DNA of 64,000 nucleotides from an uncultured Clostridia bacterium (lineage in GTDB: Bacteria > Bacillota > Clostridia > UBA1381). Positions 30,491 through 64,000 of this stretch are shown here, in pieces. The notes beneath the pieces are model-generated. The model was not told the DNA's origin, searched no databases, and saw only the letters and a list, made by a program, of their open reading frames with translations. A program made the position numbers and the translations under genes. The stretch's first letter is position 1. The number at the start of each line of letters is the position of its first letter. The DNA lies in assembly GCA_947627795.1 (NCBI GenBank), contig CANQXJ010000003.1, positions 1 through 64,000 on the forward strand, read 5' to 3'.

Positions 30491-31546
30491 CTAATCATCC
30501 TGTTTTCCCATAATGTCAAACTGACGCATAACGCGCTTGCGCTCCTGCACCGCGTACTGCGTGTAATATCTATGCGTGACCTCGATGTTTTTGTGCCCCA
30601 TCAACTCCGCGACCATTTTTATGTCAACCCCATCCGCAATCATGTTGCAGGCGAAAGTTCGCCTGAGCGCGTGGGGGCGCGTTTTGTCCGGGTCGGTAAT
30701 GCCGGCGGCGGCGCAGTATTTTTTGAGCGTTTTTTCAACGCTCTGCGCCGTCATGCGAGTTCCGAGGCGGCTTAAAAACAGCGCCTTTTTATCCTTAGCG
30801 TTCTCGTTTTTGAGCCGTTCTTCCATGTACGCGAAAAGCTCGTTTTCGACTTGGACCGGCATAAAAATTTCTTGCTCGTCGCCGCCCTTGCGCGTCACTA
30901 TAAACGAAGATGTATCGAACGACACGTCATTTATATCAAGGTTTACAAGCTCGCTCACGCGGCAGCCCGTACCGAGATACGCCGTAAACAGCGCTATATC
31001 GCGCTGCTTGTGGTTTTTATATTCGGCGAGATCGCGTCCCGTGAAATAGCTTTCGCCCTCGTATATAACGTTTATAAGCTCCACCGTTTCCTGCGCCGAT
31101 AGCGGACGCTTCATTTTCTGATGAATTTTCTTGAAATCCACTTTATCGGTTATGTTCTGCGTGATTAAATCGTTTTTGTAAAGATACCCGAAAAGACCGC
31201 GTATTCCCGACATTTTACGGTTTATTCCGTAAGGCGAGTTGCGGCGCACGCGCTTTATATGCTGACCGTTTATATTTATCTCGTCCGTTTCATATTCGCG
31301 CAGATACGCCTGAAACGCGTTCAAATCGCGCAGTGTCACCTGCTCCATATGCGCGGGCGTAAACTGCTCGTTCGACGTTATATCCTTAAATTTAAACTGC
31401 CTCAGAAAATTCAGAAAAATTTTTATATCAATGCTGTACCCGATTTGCGTATTGACGCTCTCGCCGTTATAGGCAAGCTCTATGTAATCGAACACAAAAT
31501 CCGGCAGCTGCGACAAAAAATTTGTCAGCTTTGTATATTTGCTCAT
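30491..31546 (-). CDS. Tyrosine recombinase, XerC/XerD-like
   Basis: A 351-residue phage-integrase family protein starting at ATG 31546 behind GGGAGAT. An N-terminal SAM-like core-binding domain (TNFLSQLPDFVFDYIELAYN) is followed by the catalytic domain, with Arg in GTGCRVSEL, the TRKGG hairpin Lys, HALRRTFACN and LMGHKNIEVTHRYY (nucleophile Tyr near the C-terminus). It is longer than XerC/XerD (about 300 residues) but of the same type found as a chromosomal gene in many Clostridia. It converges on the split gene. Whether it does dimer resolution or serves a mobile element cannot be told from the sequence. No att-like repeats are seen around it. Confidence 0.88.
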   Translation of the reverse strand: MSKYTKLTNFLSQLPDFVFDYIELAYNGESVNTQIGYSIDIKIFLNFLRQFKFKDITSNEQFTPAHMEQVTLRDLNAFQAYLREYETDEININGQHIKRVRRNSPYGINRKMSGIRGLFGYLYKNDLITQNITDKVDFKKIHQKMKRPLSAQETVELINVIYEGESYFTGRDLAEYKNHKQRDIALFTAYLGTGCRVSELVNLDINDVSFDTSSFIVTRKGGDEQEIFMPVQVENELFAYMEERLKNENAKDKKALFLSRLGTRMTAQSVEKTLKKYCAAAGITDPDKTRPHALRRTFACNMIADGVDIKMVAELMGHKNIEVTHRYYTQYAVQERKRVMRQFDIMGKQDD

Positions 31547-31659: not shown

Positions 31660-31698
31660 AATATAAAAGAATACAAATCATGAGAAAGGATGAAGAAA

Positions 31699-32055
31699 AT
31701 GGTATTGAAAACTGACAGCTCTCTCGGGGACGTTTTTGTGTCGAATAACGTGATCGCCGAAATCGCGGGCGCGGTTGCGGGCAAGTGTTATGGCGTGGTC
31801 GGCATGGCTTCGAGAAGTAAAAAGGACGGTATCGTAAATCTTTTAAAGCCCGACAGCGTGACGAAAGGCATAAATGTTGACGTTAAAGAGGACGGGATCT
31901 CCGTTTATCTGCATATCATTGTCGAGTACGGAATCAATATCAACTCGATATGCAAAAGTATCGTGAACCGCGTACGTTATACCATAGAAAACGCGGTGGG
32001 ACTGAAGGTAAGCAGCGTGAATGTGCGCGTTGAAGGCGTAAGGGTAGACGAATAG
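31699..32055 (+). CDS. Asp23/Gls24 (YloU) family protein
   Basis: A 118-residue Asp23 domain protein (GDVFVSNNVIAEIAGAVAGK, GVVGMASR, VYLHIIVEYGININSICKSI). ATG 31699 is preferred over the in-frame ATG 31690, because AGAAAGGA (31683-31690) lies 8 nt before it. Asp23-family proteins form membrane-associated or envelope-stress-related assemblies in Firmicutes, but the biochemical role is not settled. The gene is followed after 2 bp by yloV/fakA, the conserved YloU-YloV pair. The window encodes a second Asp23-like domain at 62408-63223. Confidence 0.92.
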   Translation: MVLKTDSSLGDVFVSNNVIAEIAGAVAGKCYGVVGMASRSKKDGIVNLLKPDSVTKGINVDVKEDGISVYLHIIVEYGININSICKSIVNRVRYTIENAVGLKVSSVNVRVEGVRVDE

Positions 32056-32057
32056 GG

Positions 32058-33788
32058 GTGATTACTATAAACAGGTTAAACGGAACGGATTTCGCGCGGA
32101 TGATAATTTCGGGCGCGAATAATCTGTATAACAATAGACAGGCGGTGGACGCCCTTAACGTGTTCCCTGTGCCGGACGGCGATACAGGTACGAATATGTC
32201 GCTTACCGTGGCGGCTATGGCGAAGGAGCTTGAGGAAAAGCCTACGGAATCGCTCACAAAGGCGGCGGACATGATGTCGTTTGCGACGCTTCGCGGAGCG
32301 CGCGGCAACTCGGGCGTAATTTTGTCGCAGTTTTTCCGCGGTATTTCAAAAAGTCTGAAGGGAAAAACGGAATGTACCGCGAAAGAATTTGCCGAGGCTC
32401 TTTCGGTAGGCTCGGCGGCGGCGTACAAGGCGGTAATGAAGCCGACAGAGGGCACGATTTTGACCGTTTCGCGCGAGGTTTGCGCCGGAGCGGCAAAGGC
32501 GGCGGAGGAAACGGACGATATCGCCTCAGTCATAACTGCGGCGGTGGAGCGCGGAAACGACGCTCTTTCAAAAACTCCGGAAATGCTGCCGGTCTTGAAG
32601 CAGGCGGGCGTTGTTGACGCGGGCGGACAGGGCTGGATGTATGTGCTCGAGGGCGCGCTATACTATCTCACGAGCGGAAATATTATTGAAAGCACGCAGG
32701 AGATTGAACCGACCGCTCCCGCGCAGCCGAAAAAGGCTCAGGAGAGCATCAGCACCGACGATATAAAATTCAAATACTGCACGGAATTTCTCATAGAAAA
32801 ATACGAGCGCGGCACGGAGGTCGACTCATTCCGCGAGGCGATCGCGCCGAAGGGCGACTGTATGCTCGTGATAGACGATGATGAAATCGTCAAGGTACAT
32901 ATCCACACAAACAATCCCGGCTTTGTGCTTGAAGAGGCGGTAAAGCTCGGCGAGATGATAAACCTTAAAATCGACAACATGAAGCATCAGCACCGCTCGA
33001 TCATAAAGGAAGCGGAGAGCGTACCCGACAACAATCCCGACAGCGAGCCGAAGGCGCAGGTAAAGCCAAAAAAAGCGCCTAAGACGAAGGCTCCGAAGCA
33101 GCCGAAAAAGGAGCCTGAAATAAAGGAATACGGCTTTGTCGCGGTGTGCGCGGGAAAGGGTATGACGGGAATTTTGAAGGATCTCGGAGTTGACCGCGTA
33201 ATCGAGGGCGGACAAACCATGAATCCGTCCACCGACGATATTTTAAAGGCTGTAAAGCGTATCAAGGCAAAGACGGTATTCGTGTTCCCGAACAACAAAA
33301 ACATAATCATGGCGGCAAATCAGGCGGCGGAGCTTGTCGAGGACAAGAAAATGGTCGTAATTCCGTCGAGAAGCGTTCCTCAGTGCGTGAGCGCGATGAT
33401 AGCGTTTAACGCCGAAAAGGACGCGGAAGCAAACGAAAAAGCCATGAACAAGGCGATTAAAAACGTCGGCACCGGTCAAATCACGTTCGCGGTGCGCGAT
33501 ACCGAAATCGAGGACGTGCAGATCAAAAAGGGCGACATACTCGGCATGGTCGAGGGCGATATAACGGCGGTCGGCAAGGAAATCGACGACGTGCTTGAAG
33601 AAATAATAAGCCGGCTCGTGGACGAGGACACGGAGATGCTCACGATTTACTACGGCAAGGACGTGCGCGACAAAAAAGCGGCTGCTATGGCGGCGAAATT
33701 TGAGGAAAAGTACGCGGACGACGAAATAGAGGTGTCGCTGAAGCGCGGCGGTCAGCCTTTGTACTACTACATCGTGAGCGCGGAGTGA
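32058..33788 (+). CDS. DAK2-domain protein YloV/FakA-like, fatty acid kinase ATP-binding subunit
   Basis: A 576-residue protein with GTG start 32058. The N-terminal DAK2 kinase domain has the Mg-binding signature NVFPVPDGDTGTNM near residue 34 and GARGNSGVILSQ near 82. The middle domain is followed by a Pro/Lys-rich linker (about 325-352) and a C-terminal FakA-type domain (GFVAVCAGKGM, PSTDDIL, VFPNNKNI). In staphylococci FakA phosphorylates fatty acids delivered by FakB (DegV) proteins for phospholipid synthesis. No DegV gene is in this window. The position between asp23 and recG is the standard Firmicutes order. Confidence 0.93.
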   Translation: MITINRLNGTDFARMIISGANNLYNNRQAVDALNVFPVPDGDTGTNMSLTVAAMAKELEEKPTESLTKAADMMSFATLRGARGNSGVILSQFFRGISKSLKGKTECTAKEFAEALSVGSAAAYKAVMKPTEGTILTVSREVCAGAAKAAEETDDIASVITAAVERGNDALSKTPEMLPVLKQAGVVDAGGQGWMYVLEGALYYLTSGNIIESTQEIEPTAPAQPKKAQESISTDDIKFKYCTEFLIEKYERGTEVDSFREAIAPKGDCMLVIDDDEIVKVHIHTNNPGFVLEEAVKLGEMINLKIDNMKHQHRSIIKEAESVPDNNPDSEPKAQVKPKKAPKTKAPKQPKKEPEIKEYGFVAVCAGKGMTGILKDLGVDRVIEGGQTMNPSTDDILKAVKRIKAKTVFVFPNNKNIIMAANQAAELVEDKKMVVIPSRSVPQCVSAMIAFNAEKDAEANEKAMNKAIKNVGTGQITFAVRDTEIEDVQIKKGDILGMVEGDITAVGKEIDDVLEEIISRLVDEDTEMLTIYYGKDVRDKKAAAMAAKFEEKYADDEIEVSLKRGGQPLYYYIVSAE

Positions 33789-36126: not shown

Positions 36127-36215
36127 GATTATGTCAAATCCTGTAACATTGTGAAAAATATCACAAAAATATACAAAAAATTACTAAAAATTCATGAAAT
36201 TATACAAAAATCCGC

Positions 36216-36244: not shown

Positions 36245-36283
36245 AATAAAAATACTCAATGACTTAATTAAGGGGTTTCTTTG

Positions 36284-36922
36284 GTGACAGAGTTGAAAAA
36301 CGAAAATAATAATCTTTCCTGTATGTCTGACGAGCTGCTCGCCGCGCTGGCGCAGTCGGGCGACGGCGACGCGCTTGAGGCGATAATATTGCGTTATAAG
36401 GGATTGGTTTATTCCAAGTCCAAAACGTATTTTCTTGCCGGCGCGGATAAAGACGATATTATTCAGGAGGGTTTTATAGGACTCTACAAGGCGGTAAAGG
36501 ATTTCGACATCAAAAAATCCGCGCACTTTAAAACGTTCGCGGGCGTTTGCGTGTCGAGACAGATTATTTCGGCTGTTAAAGCGGCTTCAAGGAAAAAGCA
36601 CATACCTCTCAATTCCTATGTGTCGCTCGATAACAGCGCCTTTGATGACGAAAATGACACAAATCTGCTTGAGTTTGTCACCGCCGGCGAGGTGCTCAAT
36701 CCCGAGGAAATCCTTATCGACCGTGAAAATGCGGACGGCATTGAGTATAAAATAAATAAGGCTTTAAGTAAGTTTGAATCCGGCGTGCTGCTTCATTATC
36801 TTGAGGGAATGAGTTATCAGGAAATTGCCGCGAAAGAGCGGCGGGACGTTAAAGCCGTTGACAACGCCATTCAGCGCATCAAGAAAAAGCTGGCAGCAGC
36901 GCTCGGGTTTGAAAAGAAATAG
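36284..36922 (+). CDS. sigH: RNA polymerase sigma-70 family factor, SigH/Spo0H type
   Basis: A 212-residue sigma factor. GTG 36284 is 8 nt after AAGGGG; the in-frame TTG 36281 is an alternative. Region 2 is visible as ILRYKGLVYSKSKTYFLAGA and DIIQEGFIGLYKAVKDFD, and region 4 as LHYLEGMSYQEIAAKERRDV followed by KAVDNAIQRIKKKL. Length and sequence fit the stationary-phase/sporulation sigma-H of Firmicutes, which drives early sporulation genes. SigH and stress-type sigma factors can look alike, so the symbol is likely rather than certain. Confidence 0.88.
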   Translation: MTELKNENNNLSCMSDELLAALAQSGDGDALEAIILRYKGLVYSKSKTYFLAGADKDDIIQEGFIGLYKAVKDFDIKKSAHFKTFAGVCVSRQIISAVKAASRKKHIPLNSYVSLDNSAFDDENDTNLLEFVTAGEVLNPEEILIDRENADGIEYKINKALSKFESGVLLHYLEGMSYQEIAAKERRDVKAVDNAIQRIKKKLAAALGFEKK

Positions 36923-55700: not shown

Positions 55701-56820
55701 TGATCCGAATTCAACAATAATAACAACGCATTTCGATTACCACTCAATCGACCAAAACCTGCTTAAGCTCGACGAGCTGGGACACGATGATCCCACGGTA
55801 ATACGAATGCTTATGGATATAACGGGAGTTGACGCGCAGAAGATACGGCTTGACGACAAGGAAACGCTGAGTCTTTTCACCTCGAATAAGGCGCTCAAGC
55901 TCAAGGATGACATCGGCACAAACTTAGGCACATACGGCGTGCCGGAGTTCGGCACAAAATTCGTTCGTCAGATGCTTGAGGACACAAAGCCGACAAAATT
56001 TTCGGAGCTTGTGAGAATTTCGGGACTTTCCCACGGCACGGACGTGTGGCTCAACAATGCGCAGGATTATATAAAACAGGGCGTCACGACGCTTTCCGAA
56101 TCCATTTGCTGCCGCGACGATATTATGATTTATCTGATTTCAAAAGGCGTAGAAGCCGGACACTCGTTCAGAATCATGGAGGCGGTAAGAAAGGGCAAGG
56201 GCTTAAAGCCCGAGGACGAGGAAGCAATGCGCGCTGCGGGCGTACCGGAGTGGTATCTCGACTCGTGCAAAAAGATAAAATACATGTTCCCGAAGGCGCA
56301 CGCGGTAGCATACGTAACAATGGCGTTCAGGATAGCGTATTTCAAGGTGCACTACCCCGAAGCGTTTTATATGGCGACATTCTCGGTAAGAGCTGATTTA
56401 TTTGACGCGTCGATAATGGCGAACGGCATGGATACGGCGCGCGCTGCTCTTAAGGATATACAGAAGAAAAAGAGCGACGGAACGGTAACTCCGAAGGAGG
56501 AGAACCTCGTTCCGATATTGGAGCTTTGCATCGAGATGTACGCGCGCGGAATAAACTTCGTAAAGGTAGATTTATACCAATCGCACGCGACGCATTTTTT
56601 GCAGACCCCGGAGGGTATCAGACCGCCTTTAAACTCGCTCCCCGGCATGAGCGACACAGCCGCGGAGAGTATCATGACAGAGCGCGAAAAGGGCGAATTC
56701 AGGACAGTCGAGGATTTGCGCATAAGAACAGGAATAACGAAGTCGATGCTTGATATCTTGGAGGCAAACGGCTGCTTTGACACTCTGCCAGATGCCGATC
56801 AGGTATCGCTGTTTGATTAG
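52789..56820 (+). CDS. polC: DNA polymerase III alpha subunit, PolC type
   Basis: A 1,343-residue replicative polymerase starting at TTG 52789, 8 nt after AGAAAGGATT. Domains in order: a shortened N-terminal domain, an OB fold (RVTFSGKVFFVDEREI, about 125), PHP (VELHLHTQMSAMDGV, about 238), DEDD 3'-5' exonuclease inserted in PHP (VVFDIETTGLD, about 326), a second PHP part, polymerase (VGSRGSVGSSFVAFL, about 785), a zinc-binding loop CPNCKNS...CPKCG, the palm acidic motif EPDIDLNFSG, and a C-terminal domain. It is the Gram-positive leading-strand enzyme with built-in proofreading. B. subtilis PolC is 1,437 residues; the difference is mainly a shorter N-terminus. Confidence 0.97.
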   Translation: MKPKLGTVIPAITDEELANLAIEKIMLSKSKRQMKLILQSGVSRYAMDRAGEAVKKACNLQKVIVTAAEVHDNAAKNTMVYEITQSRGQEAPRAARQTLGHADVRDMLYGRPIKDSTVPISSIGENSGRVTFSGKVFFVDEREITSKKTSKEYHLLTMDITDNTDSISGKMFITKKDDDGPFKKLYSTLKSGVKGGGIYVVCRGKAQYDEYAHEAVVMINDIAEIEAPPVRMDDAEEKRVELHLHTQMSAMDGVSEAKALISRAIDWGHKAIAITDHGVVQSYPDAMKASDLNEKIKVLYGVEGYMVDDGAKIVYGTKNETLDSPFVVFDIETTGLDKRKNAITEIGAVKVVNGKITDRWSTFVNPCQPIPQNIEHLTGISNEMVKDAPKIGEILSGFFEFAKDCVLVAHNAAFDTGFIKIAAERNGLPYDFCVLDTLILARCMYPEWNNHRLDTLAKNLNVILDNHHRAVDDAKATADAFVKMLAELKLRGINEISKLNDHFDLRGAAKKNRAYHIIILAKNQIGLRHIYEMISASHLNYFYRTPRIPRSLLVEKREGLILGSACEAGELFRAVVDGKTDEELKNMVEFYDYLEIQPIGNNAYMKYSDDFPQVISDEQLMDFNRRIVKLGEKYNKPVCATCDVHFLDPEGADYRKILMNYKGFKDADNQAPLYLRTTKEMLEEFEYLGKEKAYEVVVTNTNKIADMIENVRPIPKEKCPPVVEGAEEGIVNDSMKKAKEIYGDPLPKIVQERLDKELHSITTYGFSVMYRIAQELVRHSLQDGYLVGSRGSVGSSFVAFLSDITEVNSLPPHYICPNCKNSEFVEDSAGISGCDLPDKICPKCGTPYNKDGHDIPFETFLGFKGDKEPDIDLNFSGEYQPIIHKYTETFFGEGFVFRAGTIGTVAEKTAFGYVKRYCEDRGITMRNAEMNRLAQGCVGVKRTSGQHPGGIIVVPYTNNIHEFCPVQHPADDPNSTIITTHFDYHSIDQNLLKLDELGHDDPTVIRMLMDITGVDAQKIRLDDKETLSLFTSNKALKLKDDIGTNLGTYGVPEFGTKFVRQMLEDTKPTKFSELVRISGLSHGTDVWLNNAQDYIKQGVTTLSESICCRDDIMIYLISKGVEAGHSFRIMEAVRKGKGLKPEDEEAMRAAGVPEWYLDSCKKIKYMFPKAHAVAYVTMAFRIAYFKVHYPEAFYMATFSVRADLFDASIMANGMDTARAALKDIQKKKSDGTVTPKEENLVPILELCIEMYARGINFVKVDLYQSHATHFLQTPEGIRPPLNSLPGMSDTAAESIMTEREKGEFRTVEDLRIRTGITKSMLDILEANGCFDTLPDADQVSLFD

Positions 56821-56832
56821 AAGGAGGAGCGT

Positions 56833-57531
56833 ATGGCTCTGTACACAATCGCGGATCTGCATCTGCCGCTCGGAATTGACAAGCCGATGGATATATTCGG
56901 CGCGGCGTGGAGCGGCTATGTGGAGCGGCTTGCGGATAATTGGCAAAGTAAAATAAAGCCCGGCGACACAGTTGTAATGCCGGGCGACTTTTCGTGGGCG
57001 ACTTATCTCGAACAGTCGTATAAGGATTTTGAATTTCTGAATAAATTGAACGGCAGGAAGATTTTATTAAAGGGCAACCATGACTATTGGTGGACGACGC
57101 TGAATAAGCTGCGCACATTCATATCGGACGGCGGTTTTTCCGATATAGACTTTCTGCACAATAATTCCTACAAATATGAAAACATCGCGATATGCGGAAC
57201 GCGCGGCTGGCTCAACCCGTCGTGGGAGAGCTTTTCCGACGATGACAGAAAAATATTCGAAAGGGAAGTGCAGCGGCTGGAGCTTTCAATAAAAACAGCG
57301 GGGGAGTGCGATGAAATAATAGTTTTTACCCACTATCCGCCGTTATCCGTCCAGCGCGAGCCGAACGCGTTTACGGAGATGATGAAAAAATACGGAGTAA
57401 AAAAATGCTTCTACGGACACCTTCACGGTCCGGCGCACAAAAGCGCGGTTGAGGGTGTGGCAGACGGAATAGAATACAGGCTTGTCGCGGCGGATTATCT
57501 GACATTCGAACCGTGGCTGATAACGGAATAA
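56833..57531 (+). CDS. Calcineurin-like metallophosphoesterase
   Basis: A 232-residue protein starting at ATG 56833 behind AAGGAGGAG, 12 bp after polC. Metal-binding motifs: ADLHLPLG (residue 7), GDTVVMPGDFSWA (about 43-55), KGNHDYWW (about 79-86), TAGECDEIIVFTHYPP (His near 171) and CFYGHLHGP (about 194). Substrate unknown. It is convergent with the minus-strand operon that ends at 57571. Confidence 0.92.
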   Translation: MALYTIADLHLPLGIDKPMDIFGAAWSGYVERLADNWQSKIKPGDTVVMPGDFSWATYLEQSYKDFEFLNKLNGRKILLKGNHDYWWTTLNKLRTFISDGGFSDIDFLHNNSYKYENIAICGTRGWLNPSWESFSDDDRKIFEREVQRLELSIKTAGECDEIIVFTHYPPLSVQREPNAFTEMMKKYGVKKCFYGHLHGPAHKSAVEGVADGIEYRLVAADYLTFEPWLITE

Positions 57532-57570
57532 AAATCCGTTGTGATGCTTTCGTATGTTGTCCGCTTATAC

Positions 57571-58341
57571 CTATTTCCAAAACTCTATCAGCTCGCGGTG
57601 GATTTTGCCGTTGGACGCGAGTACGTCCGAATTTTGCAGCGGATTTAGCGTATTGCCGCTGTAGTCGGTTGCCGTTCCGCCCGCTTCGGAGAGGATTAGC
57701 ATTCCGGCGGCGAAATCCCAGGGCTTCAAATTTTGCTCCATATATCCGTCTGTTCTGCCCGCGGCGAGATAGCATAAATCAAGAGCGGCTGAACCGCTGC
57801 GGCGTATGTCGAGCGATAACTTAAAAATATTTTTAAACACCTCAAAATTCCTGTCAGCACGCTCCTTTTCGTACGGCGACGTGCCGATTGAAATAAGACC
57901 TTCCGACACGGAGGCGGCTTGCGAAACATGGATTTTTTCACTGTTCAGGTACGCGCCCTTACTTTTTTCGGCTGTGAACATTTCATCCGTAAATGGATTG
58001 TACACAATACCCATTACGACCTCGCCGCCGGAATACAGCGCGAGTGACACGGCGCTCATTTTATAGTCGTATATCAGGTTTGTTGTGCCGTCAACGGGAT
58101 CGAGTATCCATACCGAGCCGTCTGGATCTATTAAATGCCGCGCGCCTTCCTCGCCAAGAAGCTGTATATTGGGATAAAGTCCGTGAAGCTCGCGCTCGAT
58201 CATTGTCTGAACTTCGGTGTCAACGGCTGTTACAAAATCGGCGCGTCCTTTTTCTTTAATCGAATGAGCGAGCGTCTTGTCAAAAATAATATCCTTCGCG
58301 CGGTAAACGAGCGATTTTACCTGTTCTGTATCTATGTACAT
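57571..58341 (-). CDS. Inositol monophosphatase family protein
   Basis: A 256-residue protein starting at ATG 58341 behind GAGGAGG; an upstream in-frame ATG lacks a ribosome site and lies in the preceding gene. The motifs are LLGEEGARH (metal Glu near 67), WILDPVDGTTN (near 80-90) and LKPWDFAAGMLILSEAGG near 200. It is a Mg-dependent, Li-sensitive type phosphatase; family substrates include inositol-1-phosphate, NADP and PAP. Last gene of the rnr operon. Confidence 0.92.
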   Translation of the reverse strand: MYIDTEQVKSLVYRAKDIIFDKTLAHSIKEKGRADFVTAVDTEVQTMIERELHGLYPNIQLLGEEGARHLIDPDGSVWILDPVDGTTNLIYDYKMSAVSLALYSGGEVVMGIVYNPFTDEMFTAEKSKGAYLNSEKIHVSQAASVSEGLISIGTSPYEKERADRNFEVFKNIFKLSLDIRRSGSAALDLCYLAAGRTDGYMEQNLKPWDFAAGMLILSEAGGTATDYSGNTLNPLQNSDVLASNGKIHRELIEFWK

Positions 58342-58352
58342 AATTTTCCTCC

Positions 58353-59486
58353 TCACATTTTCGGCGGACGTTCGCCGAAATACTGGTATATATTGCATTT
58401 TAGCATACCGTTGTAAATCTTGCGCTTTTTGCTTGCTTTTCTGCCGAATAGGTCCTCAAAATCCTCGCAGGACGTCAGAATATAATACGACCATTTATCG
58501 AGCTTTGAAAAGCTTTTTCCGATTTTTTTATACAATTCGCGGCTCTCCTTTTCCGTGCCGAGCCGCTCTCCGTACGGCGGATTGCATATTATCGTGCCGT
58601 AGGGCTTGTCGGACATAAATTTCACCGCGTCGCCGACGATTGGCTTTACCGCGTCGTCCACTCCGGCAAGACGCGCGTTTTCCTTTGCGATTTCGACGGT
58701 TGACGAGTCGATGTCAATCGCGGTTATGTCGAGCGGAGTGTTTCTTTCAAACGATTTTGCTTCGTCATAAGCGGCTTCGCGCATTGCGCTTGTGATTTGT
58801 TCAAAGCTGTCGCACGCAAAGGAGCGGTTAAGCCCCGGCGCGATATTGCGCTTGAACATTGCCGCTTCAATTGGGATAGTGCCCGAGCCGCAGAACGGAT
58901 CACAGAGCGGATATTCAAATTTCCAATAGCTCATAGTGACCATCGCCGCCGCTATCGTTTCCCGAAGCGGCGCGAGATTTGAAACCCGCCTGTAGCCGCG
59001 CTTATGAAGCGGCTCGCCGGATGTGTCTATCATCAGCGTAACGCGGTCTTTTATGATTGAAAACTGAAGCTGATAAAGCGCGCCGTCCTCCGGCAGCCAC
59101 TCTATGCCGTATTTCTGCGAAAGCCTGTCCGCGACGGCTTTTTTGATTATCGCCTGACAGTCGCGCCCGCTGGCAAGCTGCGATTTTAAACAGTGTCCCT
59201 TTACCGGAAACGCGCAGTCCTTCGGGAGCCACCGCTCCCAATCTACGGCTTTTGTTTTTTCAAAAAGCTCGTCAAAGCTTTTCGCGGTAAATTCAGCCGT
59301 TTTTATAAGCACGCGCTCACCCGTGCGGATATTTATATTCGCGCGGCAGACGTCCCGCCAGCCACCCTTAAAAGTCACGCGCCCGTCCTCGACGGAGGTT
59401 GTTTCAAGCCCGAGCCTGCGTACCTCGCGCGACACGAACGATTCCAAGCCGAACAGCGTCGGCACGATTATTTCAAACTGTTCCAT
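58353..59486 (-). CDS. RlmL-type class I SAM RNA methyltransferase (YpsC family)
   Basis: A 377-residue protein. The start ATG 59486 overlaps the rnr end by 14 bp. An N-terminal ferredoxin-like/THUMP domain (FEIIVPTLFGLESFVSREVR) is followed by a UPF0020 methyltransferase domain with LCDPFCGSGTIPIEAA (about 190) and CNPPYGERLG (about 300), the NPPY amino-N methylation motif. The expected product is N2-methylguanosine in 23S rRNA, by analogy with the RlmL N-terminal half. It lies 11 bp before the phosphatase gene. Confidence 0.92.
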   Translation of the reverse strand: MEQFEIIVPTLFGLESFVSREVRRLGLETTSVEDGRVTFKGGWRDVCRANINIRTGERVLIKTAEFTAKSFDELFEKTKAVDWERWLPKDCAFPVKGHCLKSQLASGRDCQAIIKKAVADRLSQKYGIEWLPEDGALYQLQFSIIKDRVTLMIDTSGEPLHKRGYRRVSNLAPLRETIAAAMVTMSYWKFEYPLCDPFCGSGTIPIEAAMFKRNIAPGLNRSFACDSFEQITSAMREAAYDEAKSFERNTPLDITAIDIDSSTVEIAKENARLAGVDDAVKPIVGDAVKFMSDKPYGTIICNPPYGERLGTEKESRELYKKIGKSFSKLDKWSYYILTSCEDFEDLFGRKASKKRKIYNGMLKCNIYQYFGERPPKM

Positions 59487-61527
59487 TATTTTCCTTATTC
59501 CCTTTACTCTTTTTGCGTTTTCTGTGTTTTACCTTTCTGTGCGCGGCAAGCTTTTTAACGGATTTTTTCGGCTTCTTTATCATTTTCGGCTCGAAATGCT
59601 CCTCCAATACGAAATCGATCTGACGCAAAAGTATGTCCGCCTTTATAAGCGTCACGCGCACCGCGCCGCCGATTTTGTACGATTTGCCGCTCAGTCTGCC
59701 GTGAAGCGAATTTGACCTTTCATCGAACTCATAGTAATCATCTGTCATATTTTCGAGCCTGATTAAACCCTGCACGGTGTTTTCAAGCTCGACAAACATA
59801 CCAAAGCCCGTCACGTTCGCGATTACCGCGTCAAAGCTTTCGCCCAAGAACTTCGCCATATACGCCGTTTTCATCAAATCGTCAACGTCGCGCTCGGTAT
59901 GCTCGGCGGAAATTTCCATATCGGTTGAATTCTGCGCCGCACGCGTCGCGAACGCTTCAAATTGTCCGCTTTTGAGCCTTCCGTTTATAAATTCCTTTAA
60001 GATACGGTGTATTGAGAGATCCGGATAACGGCGGATAGGGGAGGTAAAGTGGCAGTAGTATTTTGCCGCAAGCCCGAAATGACCGAGATTTACGGGCTTA
60101 TATTCTGCCTTCATCATCGAGCGCAGCATAGTCGATGCGACAAGCCTTTCCTCCGGCTTTCCCTTTACCGTGTCAAGTATCTTTTGCAGCTCCTTTGAAT
60201 GAACGGGGTTGTCCTCGTCGATTTTGCCCTTCAGCGTCAAACCGAAGCTCTTTATAAAATCGCCGAACGCCGCGATTTTGTCGATAGAGGGCGGCTCGTG
60301 CGTGCGGTACACGAACGGAAGCTCCGACCAGTACGCGTACTCCGCTATCGTTTCGTTCGCGAGAAGCATGAATTCCTCAATCATTCTGTTTGAAACGCCG
60401 CGTTCCTCCTTTACAATCTCAATCGGCTCACCGTTTTTGTCAACGATAATTTCCGCTTCGGGAAAATCGAAATCCAGCGAGCCGCGCTTTACGCGTTTTT
60501 TGCGCAGCAGAGCGGAGAGCTTTTCCATTTCGAGCAGAGTGGGGAGGATATGGTCGTACCGCTCGCAAAGCGATTTGTCACCGCGCTCGAGCATGGCATT
60601 AACGTTGTTGTACGTCATTCTCTCACACGAGCGGATAACGCTCTCCTCAAGATTGTGCCCGACCGTTTCACCCGACTGCGAAACCTCGATAAACACCGAC
60701 AGCGTAAGCCTGTCCGCGTTCGGATTAAGACTGCATATCCCGTTTGAAAGCCGCTCCGGCAGCATCGGAATGACTCTGTCCGCAAGGTACACGCTCGTGC
60801 CTCGCTCAAACGCTTCGTTATCGAGCTGAGAACCCGATTTTACGTAGTGCGTAACGTCAGCGATATGAACGCCGAGCAGGTAGTTGCCGTTTTCGAGTAT
60901 ATCGAGCGAAACAGCGTCGTCGAAATCGCGCGCGTCGTCGCCGTCTATAGTGAAAATGATCCTGTTCCGCAAATCCGTCCTGCCGGTCAAATCGCGCGGA
61001 CGAATTGTTTCGGGAACTTTATAAGCCGCCGTGAGCGTTTCAACGTCAAAATCGGTCTTTATTTTGTTCTCGATAAGGATTCCTTCCACGCAGCTTTTGA
61101 GCGAATTTTCAGCTCCGAGAACAGACACGACGCGTCCGTATATGCTGCCGTCGGGAGCGTATTCCGTAATTTCAGCCGCGGCGCGCATACCGATTTGAAC
61201 GTCCATTGAGTTCTCAGGGCGTATTTTTATTTTATTGTAGAACTGTCTGCTGTCCGGACGCAGCCTGAGCGTGCCTTCTTTTTTCTTGTAAATCACGCCG
61301 ACGACGGTTTTGTTCCCGCGCTCGAGTACCTTTACAATGTACCCCTCGCGATGGCGCGAACCGTCTGCGGGCTGTTCCTCGCGCGCAAGCACCGTGTCGC
61401 CGTTTAACGCATCGCCAAGTTTTTCACCGGGCACAAATATATCCTCTCCCTCGTCGGGAATGACAAATCCGAAAAATCCTTTCGCGCTGCACGAAAGCTT
61501 ACCTTGTATCATTTCGTTTCTTTCCAT
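59473..61527 (-). CDS. rnr: Ribonuclease R, 3'-5' exoribonuclease
   Basis: A 684-residue RNase II-superfamily protein starting at ATG 61527 behind GGAGA. Cold-shock domains (GKLSCSAKGFFGFVIPDEGE) precede the RNB catalytic core FTIDGDDARDFDDAVSLD (about 195-210, four acidic residues) and the HFTSPIRRYPDL motif near 483. An S1 domain (DAVIANVTGFGMFVELENT) and a basic Lys-rich tail follow. It degrades structured RNA and acts in RNA quality control. First gene of a three-gene minus-strand operon. The usual partners secG and smpB are absent here. Confidence 0.95.
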   Translation of the reverse strand: MERNEMIQGKLSCSAKGFFGFVIPDEGEDIFVPGEKLGDALNGDTVLAREEQPADGSRHREGYIVKVLERGNKTVVGVIYKKKEGTLRLRPDSRQFYNKIKIRPENSMDVQIGMRAAAEITEYAPDGSIYGRVVSVLGAENSLKSCVEGILIENKIKTDFDVETLTAAYKVPETIRPRDLTGRTDLRNRIIFTIDGDDARDFDDAVSLDILENGNYLLGVHIADVTHYVKSGSQLDNEAFERGTSVYLADRVIPMLPERLSNGICSLNPNADRLTLSVFIEVSQSGETVGHNLEESVIRSCERMTYNNVNAMLERGDKSLCERYDHILPTLLEMEKLSALLRKKRVKRGSLDFDFPEAEIIVDKNGEPIEIVKEERGVSNRMIEEFMLLANETIAEYAYWSELPFVYRTHEPPSIDKIAAFGDFIKSFGLTLKGKIDEDNPVHSKELQKILDTVKGKPEERLVASTMLRSMMKAEYKPVNLGHFGLAAKYYCHFTSPIRRYPDLSIHRILKEFINGRLKSGQFEAFATRAAQNSTDMEISAEHTERDVDDLMKTAYMAKFLGESFDAVIANVTGFGMFVELENTVQGLIRLENMTDDYYEFDERSNSLHGRLSGKSYKIGGAVRVTLIKADILLRQIDFVLEEHFEPKMIKKPKKSVKKLAAHRKVKHRKRKKSKGNKENNGTV

Positions 61528-61611
61528 AATTTTCTCCGTAGAATTATTTTAGTAAATTATACCATACCGTCATAATAATTTCAATTAAAATATTTATATT
61601 CATTATTCCTC

Positions 61612-61641
61612 TTGACAAATCAAAATATAATAGTATATAAT
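61612..61641 (+). promoter_or_regulatory. Sigma-A promoter of rex
   Basis: TTGACA (61612-61617), an 18-bp spacer and TATAAT (61636-61641), 110 bp before the start. The region is very AT-rich. I looked for a Rex operator and saw only an irregular TTGTGA/TTACAA pair (61666-61689), not the usual spacing. Confidence 0.75.
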
Positions 61642-61750
61642 AAAAACAGAACAAATTTTCGCGTTTTTGTGATAAAAAAATAATTTACAAAATAGAATTC
61701 ATATGATATAATTACAAAAAATAATTATACTGAAAGGAATTATTTATGGG

Positions 61751-62392
61751 ATGAGTGATTGCGAAAAGAAAGTACCGGAAGTGGTTATAAAGCGGCTGCC
61801 GAGATATTACAGATATTTGGGTGAGCTTCTTAATCAGAATATCACTCGTATCTCGTCGAATGCTCTGAGCGAAAAGATGAACGTCACGGCTTCGCAGATA
61901 CGTCAGGATTTCAACTATTTCGGCGGTTTCGGGCAGCAGGGATACGGCTATAACGTTGAGCATCTTTTCAACGAGATGGGCGAGATCCTCGGGCTTCACG
62001 ACCACGACACTATGATTATCGTAGGCGCGGGAAACTTGGGCAGAGCGCTCGCGAATCACAATGCGTTCGAAAAACGCGGCTTTAAGCTTGTCGGAATGTT
62101 CGACAATGACAAAAAAACAATCGGCTCTACGGTGAACGGCGTAAAGGTTATGCCGGTAGACGAGTTGGAAACGTTTATAAAGGAAAACCGCGTAGATATA
62201 GGCATACTTACCGTGCCGAAATCTGCGGTGCAGGAAACGGCGGAAAGGCTTGCAAAATGCGGTATAAAGGGGCTTCTAAATTTCTCGTATACCGAGCTTG
62301 AGCTGCCCGATGAGGTAACTGTCGAAAACGTGCATTTTTCCGACTCGCTTATGATTTTATCATACAATATACGTCATCGCGGCGAGGAATAA
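61751..62392 (+). CDS. rex: Redox-sensing transcriptional repressor Rex
   Basis: A 213-residue protein starting at ATG 61751, 12 nt after AAAGGA. A second ATG at 61746 opens only a 2-codon frame. The N-terminal winged helix (PRYYRYLGELLNQNITRISS, VTASQIRQDFNYFGGFGQQG) is followed by a Rossmann domain with the NAD(H) motif IVGAGNLGRALANH near 95. It represses fermentation and respiration genes when NAD+/NADH is high. Confidence 0.97.
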   Translation: MSDCEKKVPEVVIKRLPRYYRYLGELLNQNITRISSNALSEKMNVTASQIRQDFNYFGGFGQQGYGYNVEHLFNEMGEILGLHDHDTMIIVGAGNLGRALANHNAFEKRGFKLVGMFDNDKKTIGSTVNGVKVMPVDELETFIKENRVDIGILTVPKSAVQETAERLAKCGIKGLLNFSYTELELPDEVTVENVHFSDSLMILSYNIRHRGEE

Positions 62393-62407
62393 AAGAGAGG
62401 TATATTT

Positions 62408-63223
62408 ATGAAAGTAATAGCGTTTACCGGACCGAGCGGTACGGGTAAAAGCTACAGAAGCGTCATGGTGGCAAGACGCTGCGGCGCGGACGGAATAATA
62501 GACGACGGGCTTCTGATATCCCACGGCAAGGTCATAGCGGGCACGTCGGCAAAAAAAGAGGCGACGAGGATCGCCTCTGTTAAGCATGCTCTTTTTATGA
62601 ACGACGCGTATGCCGCCGAGATCACGAAGGCGCTCAATGAAAGCGGTTTGTCATGCGTAATGATCCTCGGCACGTCCGAGAACATGGCGAAAAAAATAGC
62701 CGCCAAACTGAAGCTGCCGAAGATTTCCGAATTTATACATATAGAGGACGTGGCAAGCGAGGAGGAAATGGAGCTTGCTCATGAGATGCGCACAAATCAA
62801 GGTCAGCACGTAATTCCCGTGCCGACATTTGAGATAAAAAAGGATTTTTCGGGATACTTCCTGCATCCGCTCCGTAGGCTCCAAAGGAACCTCGATTCCG
62901 AAGATCCCACAGAACCCGATAAATCAATAGTCCGCCCCACCTTCAGCTACATGGGCGACTATACAATTTCGGATAAGGTTATAATAGCTATAGCTATCCA
63001 TGAAACGGAGAAGTTTTCGGAGGTAGCGAAAATAGTTAACATAAATCTGAGGAAAACTACCCACGGGGTGCATATAGATATGACTCTCGCGGTTAAATAC
63101 GGCTGCGATATAAACGAAGTTTGCCGTGATATTCAGCGCGCGGTGAGATATAATATAGAGATGTACACGTCGATCAACGCGCGGCGCGTTCATATATTTG
63201 TAAGAAATATTGTAACGGACTGA
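62408..63223 (+). CDS. P-loop ATPase fused to an Asp23-like domain
   Basis: A 271-residue protein starting at ATG 62408 behind AAGAGAGG, 15 bp after rex. The N-terminal half is a P-loop NTPase with Walker A GPSGTGKS (8-15) and a kinase-like layout (IDDGLLISHGKVIAG). The C-terminal 85 residues (SDKVIIAIAIHETEKFSEVA, THGVHIDMTLAVKYG, RAVRYNIEMYTSINARRVHI) look like an Asp23/YloU domain. I know the combination only as a hypothetical clostridial protein. It probably shares an operon with rex and uvrB. Biochemical function unknown. Confidence 0.82.
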   Translation: MKVIAFTGPSGTGKSYRSVMVARRCGADGIIDDGLLISHGKVIAGTSAKKEATRIASVKHALFMNDAYAAEITKALNESGLSCVMILGTSENMAKKIAAKLKLPKISEFIHIEDVASEEEMELAHEMRTNQGQHVIPVPTFEIKKDFSGYFLHPLRRLQRNLDSEDPTEPDKSIVRPTFSYMGDYTISDKVIIAIAIHETEKFSEVAKIVNINLRKTTHGVHIDMTLAVKYGCDINEVCRDIQRAVRYNIEMYTSINARRVHIFVRNIVTD

Positions 63224-63233
63224 GGTGTTATGA

Positions 63234-64000
63234 TTGGACAGATTTGAGCTTGTATCGGATTTCAAGCCGCAGGGCGATCAGCCACAGGCGATAAAAACGC
63301 TTGTTGACGGGATAAGAAACGGCGAAAAATGCCAGACGCTTCTGGGCGTTACGGGCTCTGGCAAGACATTTACGATGGCGAACGTTATCGCCGAGATCAA
63401 CCGCCCGACTATAGTGCTCGCGCATAACAAGACGCTCGCGGCGCAGCTATGCAGCGAGTTTAAGGAATTTTTCCCGAATAACTGCGTCGAGTTTTTTGTG
63501 TCGTATTACGACTACTACCAGCCCGAGGCGTATATTCCGCAGACGGACACGTTCATTGAAAAGGACGCGAGCACCAACGATGAAATAGACAAGCTCCGCC
63601 ACAGCGCGACGTTCGCCCTGTTCGAGCGGCGCGACGTTTTGATCGTGGCGAGCGTTTCATGCATATACGGTTTGGGCGATCCCGAGGACTATAAAAACCT
63701 CATGCTGTCGCTGCGCGTCGGTATGGAGCGAGACAGGGACGAAATTTTAAAAAAGCTCGTGGATATGCAGTACGAGCGCAACGATATAAATTTTGTAAGA
63801 AACAAGTTCCGCGTACGCGGCGACGTTATAGAAATTTTCCCGTCGAACAACGGCGAAAACGCGATACGCGTGGAATTTTTCGGCGACGAGATAGAGCGCA
63901 TATGCGAGGTAAGCGTCGTGACGGGCGAGATCATAGGAGTAAGGCAGCACGCCGTCATAATGCCCGCGTCGCATTACGTCACGACGGGGGACAAAATGAA
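63234..64000 (+). CDS. uvrB: Excinuclease ABC subunit UvrB, N-terminal part (runs off the window)
   Basis: The start is TTG 63234, 6 nt after GAGGTG (63222-63227); the nearby ATG 63230 is out of frame and closes at once. The 255 visible residues contain [20 protein letters not shown], Walker [17 protein letters not shown] (about 37-52), HNKTLAAQL, the beta-hairpin [20 protein letters not shown] and [12 protein letters not shown]. It is the damage-verifying helicase-like subunit of nucleotide excision repair. The gene is open to the last base. Confidence 0.96.

Follow-up and report, generated by a model that had tools for sequence, protein, structure and literature searches.

A protein joining a P-loop domain to an Asp23 half, encoded between rex and uvrB in an uncultured Clostridia bacterium

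The closest described relatives of the protein analysed here belong to the Asp23/Gls24 family, which comprises small stand-alone proteins such as Asp23 of Staphylococcus aureus and YloU and YqhY of Bacillus subtilis. Passages of PMC6954212 report that S. aureus Asp23 forms filaments and that its membrane anchor is AmaP, and call the molecular function of Asp23 unclear. YqhY of B. subtilis is linked to acetyl-CoA carboxylase in passages of PMC5437119. In the titles and abstracts of open-licence papers, no description of a P-loop-Asp23 fusion was found, and passages of PMC12548448 name Asp23 in the reference list alone. Asp23 proteins are abundant and widespread; such a fusion gives biochemistry a way into this poorly understood family. 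Like the family members, the protein described below matches the Asp23 profile PF03780 above cut-off; unlike them, it is a chain of 271 residues with an N-terminal P-loop domain, its Asp23 half lies on a separate tree branch and has no glycine-rich loop, and it occurs as an extra copy, not as a replacement.

Locus and architecture of the fusion protein

The window, i.e. the whole stretch of 64,000 nucleotides that was analysed, contains on its plus strand (62408-63223) an open reading frame encoding a 271-residue protein with the N-terminus MKVIAFTGPSGTGKSYRS. The features are the following:

61751..62392, plus strand: rex, redox-sensing repressor, directly upstream of the fusion gene (Pfam Put_DNA-bind_N and CoA_binding)
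62408..63223, plus strand: P-loop NTPase-Asp23 fusion, 271 residues (open reading frame; Pfam Asp23 match above cut-off; homologues in 38 of 61 genomes)
62429..62452, plus strand: Walker A or P-loop motif GPSGTGKS, residues 8-15 (from sequence; G8, G11, G13, K14 and S15 invariant)
62501..62509, plus strand: DDG motif, residues 32-34 (invariant in 88 of 88 homologues; candidate Mg2+-binding site)
62801..62872, plus strand: residues 132-155, GQHVIPVPTFEIKKDFSGYFLHPL, the stretch of highest conservation (perhaps a lid or a clamp between the domains)
62918..62959, plus strand: second linker motif, residues 171-184, leading into the Asp23 half (69% mean identity)
62960..63220, plus strand: Asp23 half, residues 185-271 (PF03780 at 205-268; structural model; CDF-like predicted fold)
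63234..64000, plus strand: uvrB, directly downstream of the fusion gene and running off the window (Pfam UvrB_inter)
31690..32055, plus strand: stand-alone YloU-type Asp23 protein (PF03780 at 96.5 bits, profile positions 2-108; groups with YloU-type rows)

The initial annotation had placed a GPSGTGKS half and an Asp23-like half in one chain, between rex and uvrB; the 271-residue frame carries both halves, and Pfam identifies both neighbours. The gaps between the three genes are short (15 nt from rex to the fusion gene, 10 nt from the fusion gene to uvrB) and both contain purine-rich, ribosome-binding-like stretches, so that rex, the fusion gene and uvrB likely form one candidate operon. Upstream of rex, a promoter-like site was found at 61684-61712, the region 61500-63400 holding 11 such sites against a shuffled mean of 4.0. 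Against a single operon stands one terminator-like stem on the plus strand (63176-63190), which lies in the last part of the fusion gene and lacks a true run of T. Rfam gave no match in 56000-64000.

The C-terminal half was compared with the Asp23 profile. PF03780 matches residues 205-268 with an E-value of 1.6e-11 and 45 bits, above the Pfam cut-off of 28, which upholds the earlier assignment of this half. The match spans positions 45-107 of the 108 in the profile, the first part of the Asp23 domain not being matched. By eye, GDYTISDKVIIAIA, which precedes the match, looks like the start of YloU/YqhY-type proteins, and the half aligns with the Asp23/Gls24 family around a conserved YG; the glycine-rich loop of the YloU and YqhY types was absent from it in the same kind of sequence comparison. 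Since all 88 members of an alignment of homologues (A3) match PF03780 at E <= 0.1 and G8, G11, G13, K14 and S15 are invariant in the same 88, a chance match is excluded.

Two structural models were predicted, the first from 21 sequences (mean pLDDT 69.2), the second from 88 sequences (mean pLDDT 83.3, pTM 0.56). Residues 137-154 and 159-185 have pLDDT values below 50 in the second model. The Asp23 half is confidently modelled, with pLDDT block means of 83-98 from residue 191 onward, and its predicted secondary structure is helix-strand-strand-helix-strand. Its predicted fold is that of the cytosolic domains of cation diffusion facilitators (CDF; MamM, MamB, CzcD, YiiP; Pfam ZT_dimer), at about 16% identity: the model superimposes on 6hhs_D with a VIA-align Z of 12.2 and an rmsd of 1.9 over 80 residues, and matches 6hao with a Foldseek E-value of 6.3e-5. 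A faint echo is found in the sequence, ZT_dimer scoring 15.2 bits on the window protein (under its cut-off of 26.7) and matching 15 of the 88 A3 members at E <= 0.1. The Pfam text describes ZT_dimer, a related family, as a dimerisation domain. Metal binding by the Asp23 half does not follow from the shared fold; the predicted likeness is a second testable lead, next to the nucleotide site.

Conservation, spread and accompanying Asp23 proteins

Conservation was computed on the 88 rows of A3 as the mean pairwise identity per segment. It amounts to 62% for residues 1-50 and 44% for residues 51-131 (50% for 1-131 together), 75% for residues 132-155, 22% for residues 156-170, 69% for residues 171-184 and 32% for residues 185-268 of the Asp23 half. 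Besides the five Walker A residues, D32, D33, G34, G45, K49, T89, S90, M93, R128, H134, P137, R176, P177 and G183 are invariant in all 88 rows, E142 being kept in 81 and K144 in 82. Among 158 homologues cut from their loci, the strict Walker A pattern is present in 157, the exception being L104 with GTTGTGKS, and DDG in all 158; DDG stands at the end of the strand that follows the P-loop helix (residues 29-32 in the model). Judged from the alignment, selection is strongest on the nucleotide site and the two interdomain segments. A strongly conserved nucleotide site and linkers combined with a looser Asp23 half are typical of a catalytic or switching core to which a module is attached.

The Monoglobus homologue, the sole annotated one found, is listed as 'Asp23/Gls24 family envelope stress response protein', which covers its Asp23 half and nothing else. 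Such a name would suit a diverged ordinary Asp23 paralogue whose P-loop half is a functionless relic, but this explanation is highly improbable, being contradicted by the invariance in 88 of 88 homologues of the Walker A G/K/S residues, DDG, T89-S90, R128, H134 and R176-P177. As the P-loop half is left unnamed, the annotation hides the more conserved half of the protein; a better one is possible, the present name covering the less conserved half only.

Homologues with E-values below 1e-50 were found in 38 of 61 genomes (the window's own and its relatives), the copies of G045 and G060 being incomplete. A scan of GTDB contigs yielded at least 534 confirmed relatives among 579 pattern-matching stretches, the best 80 of which were taken as loci L033-L112. 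Among the named holders are Petroclostridium sp. X23, Acetivibrio straminisolvens, Ruminiclostridium sufflavum and Alkaliphilus pronyensis. A profile of the N-terminal domain (A4, 18 rows) matches 167 of 398 evenly sampled genomes of the phylum at E <= 1e-10; as the weakest match has an E-value of 2.2e-48, holders and non-holders are cleanly split. Each holder genome has one match, with the exception of G213, which has two. The family, sampled within one phylum, is widespread, patchy and nearly always single-copy.

Among the A4 matches listed and the 158 homologues cut from loci, no N-terminal domain was found without room for an Asp23 half. The matches listed all lie in open frames of 269 codons or more, a length which is by itself no proof of an Asp23 half. 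All 158 homologues, near-duplicates included, have at least 264 residues; full-length queries were used to fetch most of their loci, so that this set leans to whole proteins. The longest frames were inspected for extra domains, and these were rejected: in L143 (G243) and L144 (G154), which come from high-GC genomes and encode 363 and 351 residues, the Asp23 half is followed by a low-complexity tail rich in Pro, Ala and Gly, and L145 has an upstream open stretch. A phage or virus origin was also discarded: no match was found in phages and no relative in viral contigs, PHROGs gave weak P-loop matches and PADLOC none.

All proteins matching PF03780 at E <= 1e-5 were then counted in the 61 genomes. 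Of the 38 holders, 33 have two further Asp23 proteins and 5 have one (G000, G015, G035, G045 and G060). The fusion itself is matched at this threshold in 36 of the 38; it is missed in G040 and G049, where both matches are the other Asp23 proteins. The 23 non-holders have one (6 genomes), two (15) or three (2) Asp23 proteins, two of the three matches in the non-holder G052 being partial. Passages of PMC5437119 give a minimum of two Asp23 proteins per genome, a rule to which the six one-copy non-holders form a seeming exception, perhaps arising from assembly gaps. The fusion is thus an additional Asp23 protein, usually found beside two others, and the idea that it replaces a YqhY-type protein was dropped, for the relatives taken together, in view of the counts in holders. 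The view of the initial annotation that Asp23 domains normally occur alone has to be qualified: in its 38 holders among the 61 genomes the fusion typically makes up one of three Asp23 proteins, and the N-terminal domain is matched in 167 of 398 genomes of the phylum. In G026 (C54) and G033 (C127), one of the two further Asp23 proteins is an unusually weak match to PF03780 (58.5 and 56.7 bits; positions 3-107), a diverged copy.

The window genome, which is 79% complete, has a single other Asp23 protein. Its gene is the separate one that had earlier been placed at 31699: the gene is present, but starts at 31690, 31699 being the second in-frame ATG. By the look of the translations, it is adjoined by a YloV-like gene at 32058 and, on the minus strand at 30491-31546, by a tyrosine-recombinase-like open reading frame. 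A yloU-yloV gene pair is described in passages of PMC5437119.

A tree was built from 25 fusion Asp23 halves, 11 YloU-type and 10 YqhY-type proteins, the type labels being assigned by script from the GVVGM motif, not from gene context. A single branch separates the fusion Asp23 halves from both other types (support 95/91; 94% of bootstrap trees). The YloU group is supported at 100/97 and the YqhY group at 76/83. Eleven of the fusion rows sit on long branches and two long pairs come together, which makes the inner order unsure.

Class of the P-loop domain and proposed function

Sequence motifs mark the N-terminal half as a P-loop domain and support nucleotide binding. The label 'ATPase' first given to it goes further than the sequence, which speaks for a nucleotide-binding P-loop domain but does not fix hydrolysis, the nucleotide or the P-loop class. 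Searched with the window protein, Pfam gave no family above its cut-off for the N-terminal half and NCBIfam no model at cut-off. Among the 88 homologues, weak Pfam matches of this half were found with ABC_tran (66), AAA (57) and AAA_33 (47). A single-sequence search of the PDB gave no convincing relative (best E-value 0.069), and profile searches reached 0.0021 with A4 and 0.0083 with A3, on short stretches of P-loop or designed proteins. A Walker B motif with a catalytic residue could not be fixed in the sequence.

The domain was compared using hhalign with our own alignments of APS (17 rows), cytidylate (20 rows) and HPr (20 rows) kinases. Of 18 strong PF01583 loci, all but L167, which has a long fused frame, supplied the APS kinase rows, and the weak P-loop matches L183-L189 were omitted as well; for cytidylate and HPr kinases, all 20 loci of each were used. 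In all three families, proteins were chosen by the nearest Walker A, and three per family were inspected. The resulting probabilities were 92.6% (APS kinase), 92.7% (cytidylate kinase) and 66% (HPr kinase), in matches that start with the domain and end after 34-54 aligned columns. Walker A, the first helix and the second strand align with those of APS and cytidylate kinases, with no detectable match past that region; residues 60-184 alone did not match any of the three families (E-values of 0.22 for APS, 0.15 for cytidylate and 0.076 for HPr kinase).

APS kinases carry an EIKxFTG stretch, with similar letters in L168. An APS kinase identity was considered from the likeness of EIKKDFSG to this stretch and dropped because profile comparison gave no support, hhalign aligning residues 3-37 only. 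PF01583 did not match the window protein at E <= 1 and is absent among the 25 of 59 families listed for the 88 members. HPr kinase/phosphorylase resembles the fusion, by reading, in the DD and strand hairpin that come about 17 residues after the P-loop; despite this spacing the comparison is weak, with hhalign aligning residues 4-38 only and PF07475 matching 1 of the 88 members (E-value 0.0025). Era appeared in the Foldseek list with E-values of 1.4e-4 and 5e-4, but an rmsd of about 20 and a TM-score of at most 0.24; these values and the lack of a visible NKxD motif speak against an Era-like GTPase. The Foldseek list of the full-length model was filled by matches of the Asp23 half and contained no fold for the N-terminal domain, which should not be taken as a sign of a new fold.

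Our tentative reading, to which we give slightly less than an even chance, is that the fusion is a kinase-like P-loop enzyme or a nucleotide-driven switch with the Asp23 half as an assembly module. A nucleotide with Mg2+ would bind at the P-loop and DDG. The linker (R128, H134, E142, K144, R176, P177) might close over it and carry the site of a substrate or partner; such a lid is a guess because most of residues 137-185 have a pLDDT below 50. The Asp23 half would pair with itself or with other Asp23 proteins, and the nucleotide state would in this way be linked to the assembly state, possibly close to the membrane like Staphylococcus Asp23. This reading is favoured by the conservation of the single chain, the invariant Walker A and DDG, the two strongly conserved linker motifs, the tree group formed by the Asp23 halves and their predicted CDF-domain fold, with the related ZT_dimer described as a dimerisation domain. 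It is further favoured by the clean boundary of the N-terminal domain in the phylum sample, the weak Pfam matches of that half to P-loop families, the hhalign probabilities for APS and cytidylate kinases over the P-loop region and the filaments of S. aureus Asp23. Against it, no P-loop class could be assigned, matches ending after 34-54 aligned columns, no Walker B with a catalytic residue was fixed, and the neighbouring genes, which vary between lineages, name no pathway. As the Asp23 half has no YloU/YqhY glycine-rich loop, it may not assemble as those proteins do. The nucleotide site, invariant in a natural fusion, can be assayed: which nucleotide is bound, what product is made and whether the nucleotide state alters Asp23 assembly.

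Alternatively, the P-loop might bind a nucleotide without any substrate and only open or close Asp23 assemblies at the cell envelope. Consistent with this are the polymerisation of S. aureus Asp23 in vitro, reported in passages of PMC6954212, the presence in all 38 holders of at least one other Asp23 protein (two in 33, one in 5) and the predicted fold shared with CDF cytosolic domains, kin to a Pfam dimerisation domain. We consider it somewhat unlikely, as it is the P-loop domain and the linkers that are most conserved, not the Asp23 half, and several of their invariant residues are charged, which looks more like a substrate site than a bare switch. A more encompassing proposal, which we hold to be unlikely, is that assembly is what Asp23 domains do and that in the fusion it is governed by a nucleotide cycle within the one chain; the fusion would then be a nucleotide-dependent regulator or enzyme of the Clostridia Asp23 scaffold, and its P-loop domain would form a separate class.

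Gene neighbourhood in relatives

Neighbouring genes were collected for 97 loci in which the fusion could be placed. Near relatives are over-represented among them, because 80 were selected for matching the window best. In this set, rex lies directly upstream of the fusion in 36 of the 96 loci with at least 300 bases upstream. uvrB follows within 600 bases at 15 of the 97 loci (12 of the 87 with 2.5 kb downstream), a DNA glycosylase gene lies within 2.5 kb in 12 of these 87, and cmk follows after 9-36 bases at 14 of the 97. The queries for cmk and the glycosylase had been named by the look of their translations and not by Pfam. The neighbourhood rex-fusion-glycosylase recurs in L068-L070, L098 and L148 and, by annotation, in Monoglobus, where aconitase, isocitrate dehydrogenase, rex, the fusion and the DNA glycosylase stand in sequence.

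These neighbours would fit a metabolic kinase that is merely tethered by its Asp23 half and acts in redox or nucleotide metabolism or in DNA repair. However, the counts lean to near relatives, and in 16 of 17 distant loci (L143-L162, with flanks of about 3 kb) none of rex, uvrB, glycosylase and cmk was found nearby by tblastn at an E-value of 1e-5, L148 being the sole distant locus with rex and the glycosylase near the fusion. A search with a Rex-type pattern gave 2 matches in the window against a chance mean of 3.4, i.e. not above chance, and none beside the operon. We regard a tethered kinase of this kind as improbable. Neighbouring genes differ between lineages and point to no pathway, and we read the recurring neighbourhood as inherited gene order. 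A link to sporulation was likewise discarded: SpoIVA does not discriminate because it is present in 56 of the 61 genomes.

Elsewhere in the window, a near-palindrome, TTGTGAAAAATATCACAA, lies at 36149-36166, about 115 bases upstream of an open reading frame (36281-36922) that looks sigma-factor-like; the site is Rex- or CRP-like by its look, but the pattern searched for is no more frequent in the window than by chance. Finally, the homologue of Monoglobus pectinilyticus (NZ_OY725741.1, 111638-122438; L250) is carried by a circular record of 285,641 bp filed as plasmid 17, which is a chromid-like element or else a part of the chromosome under a wrong label.
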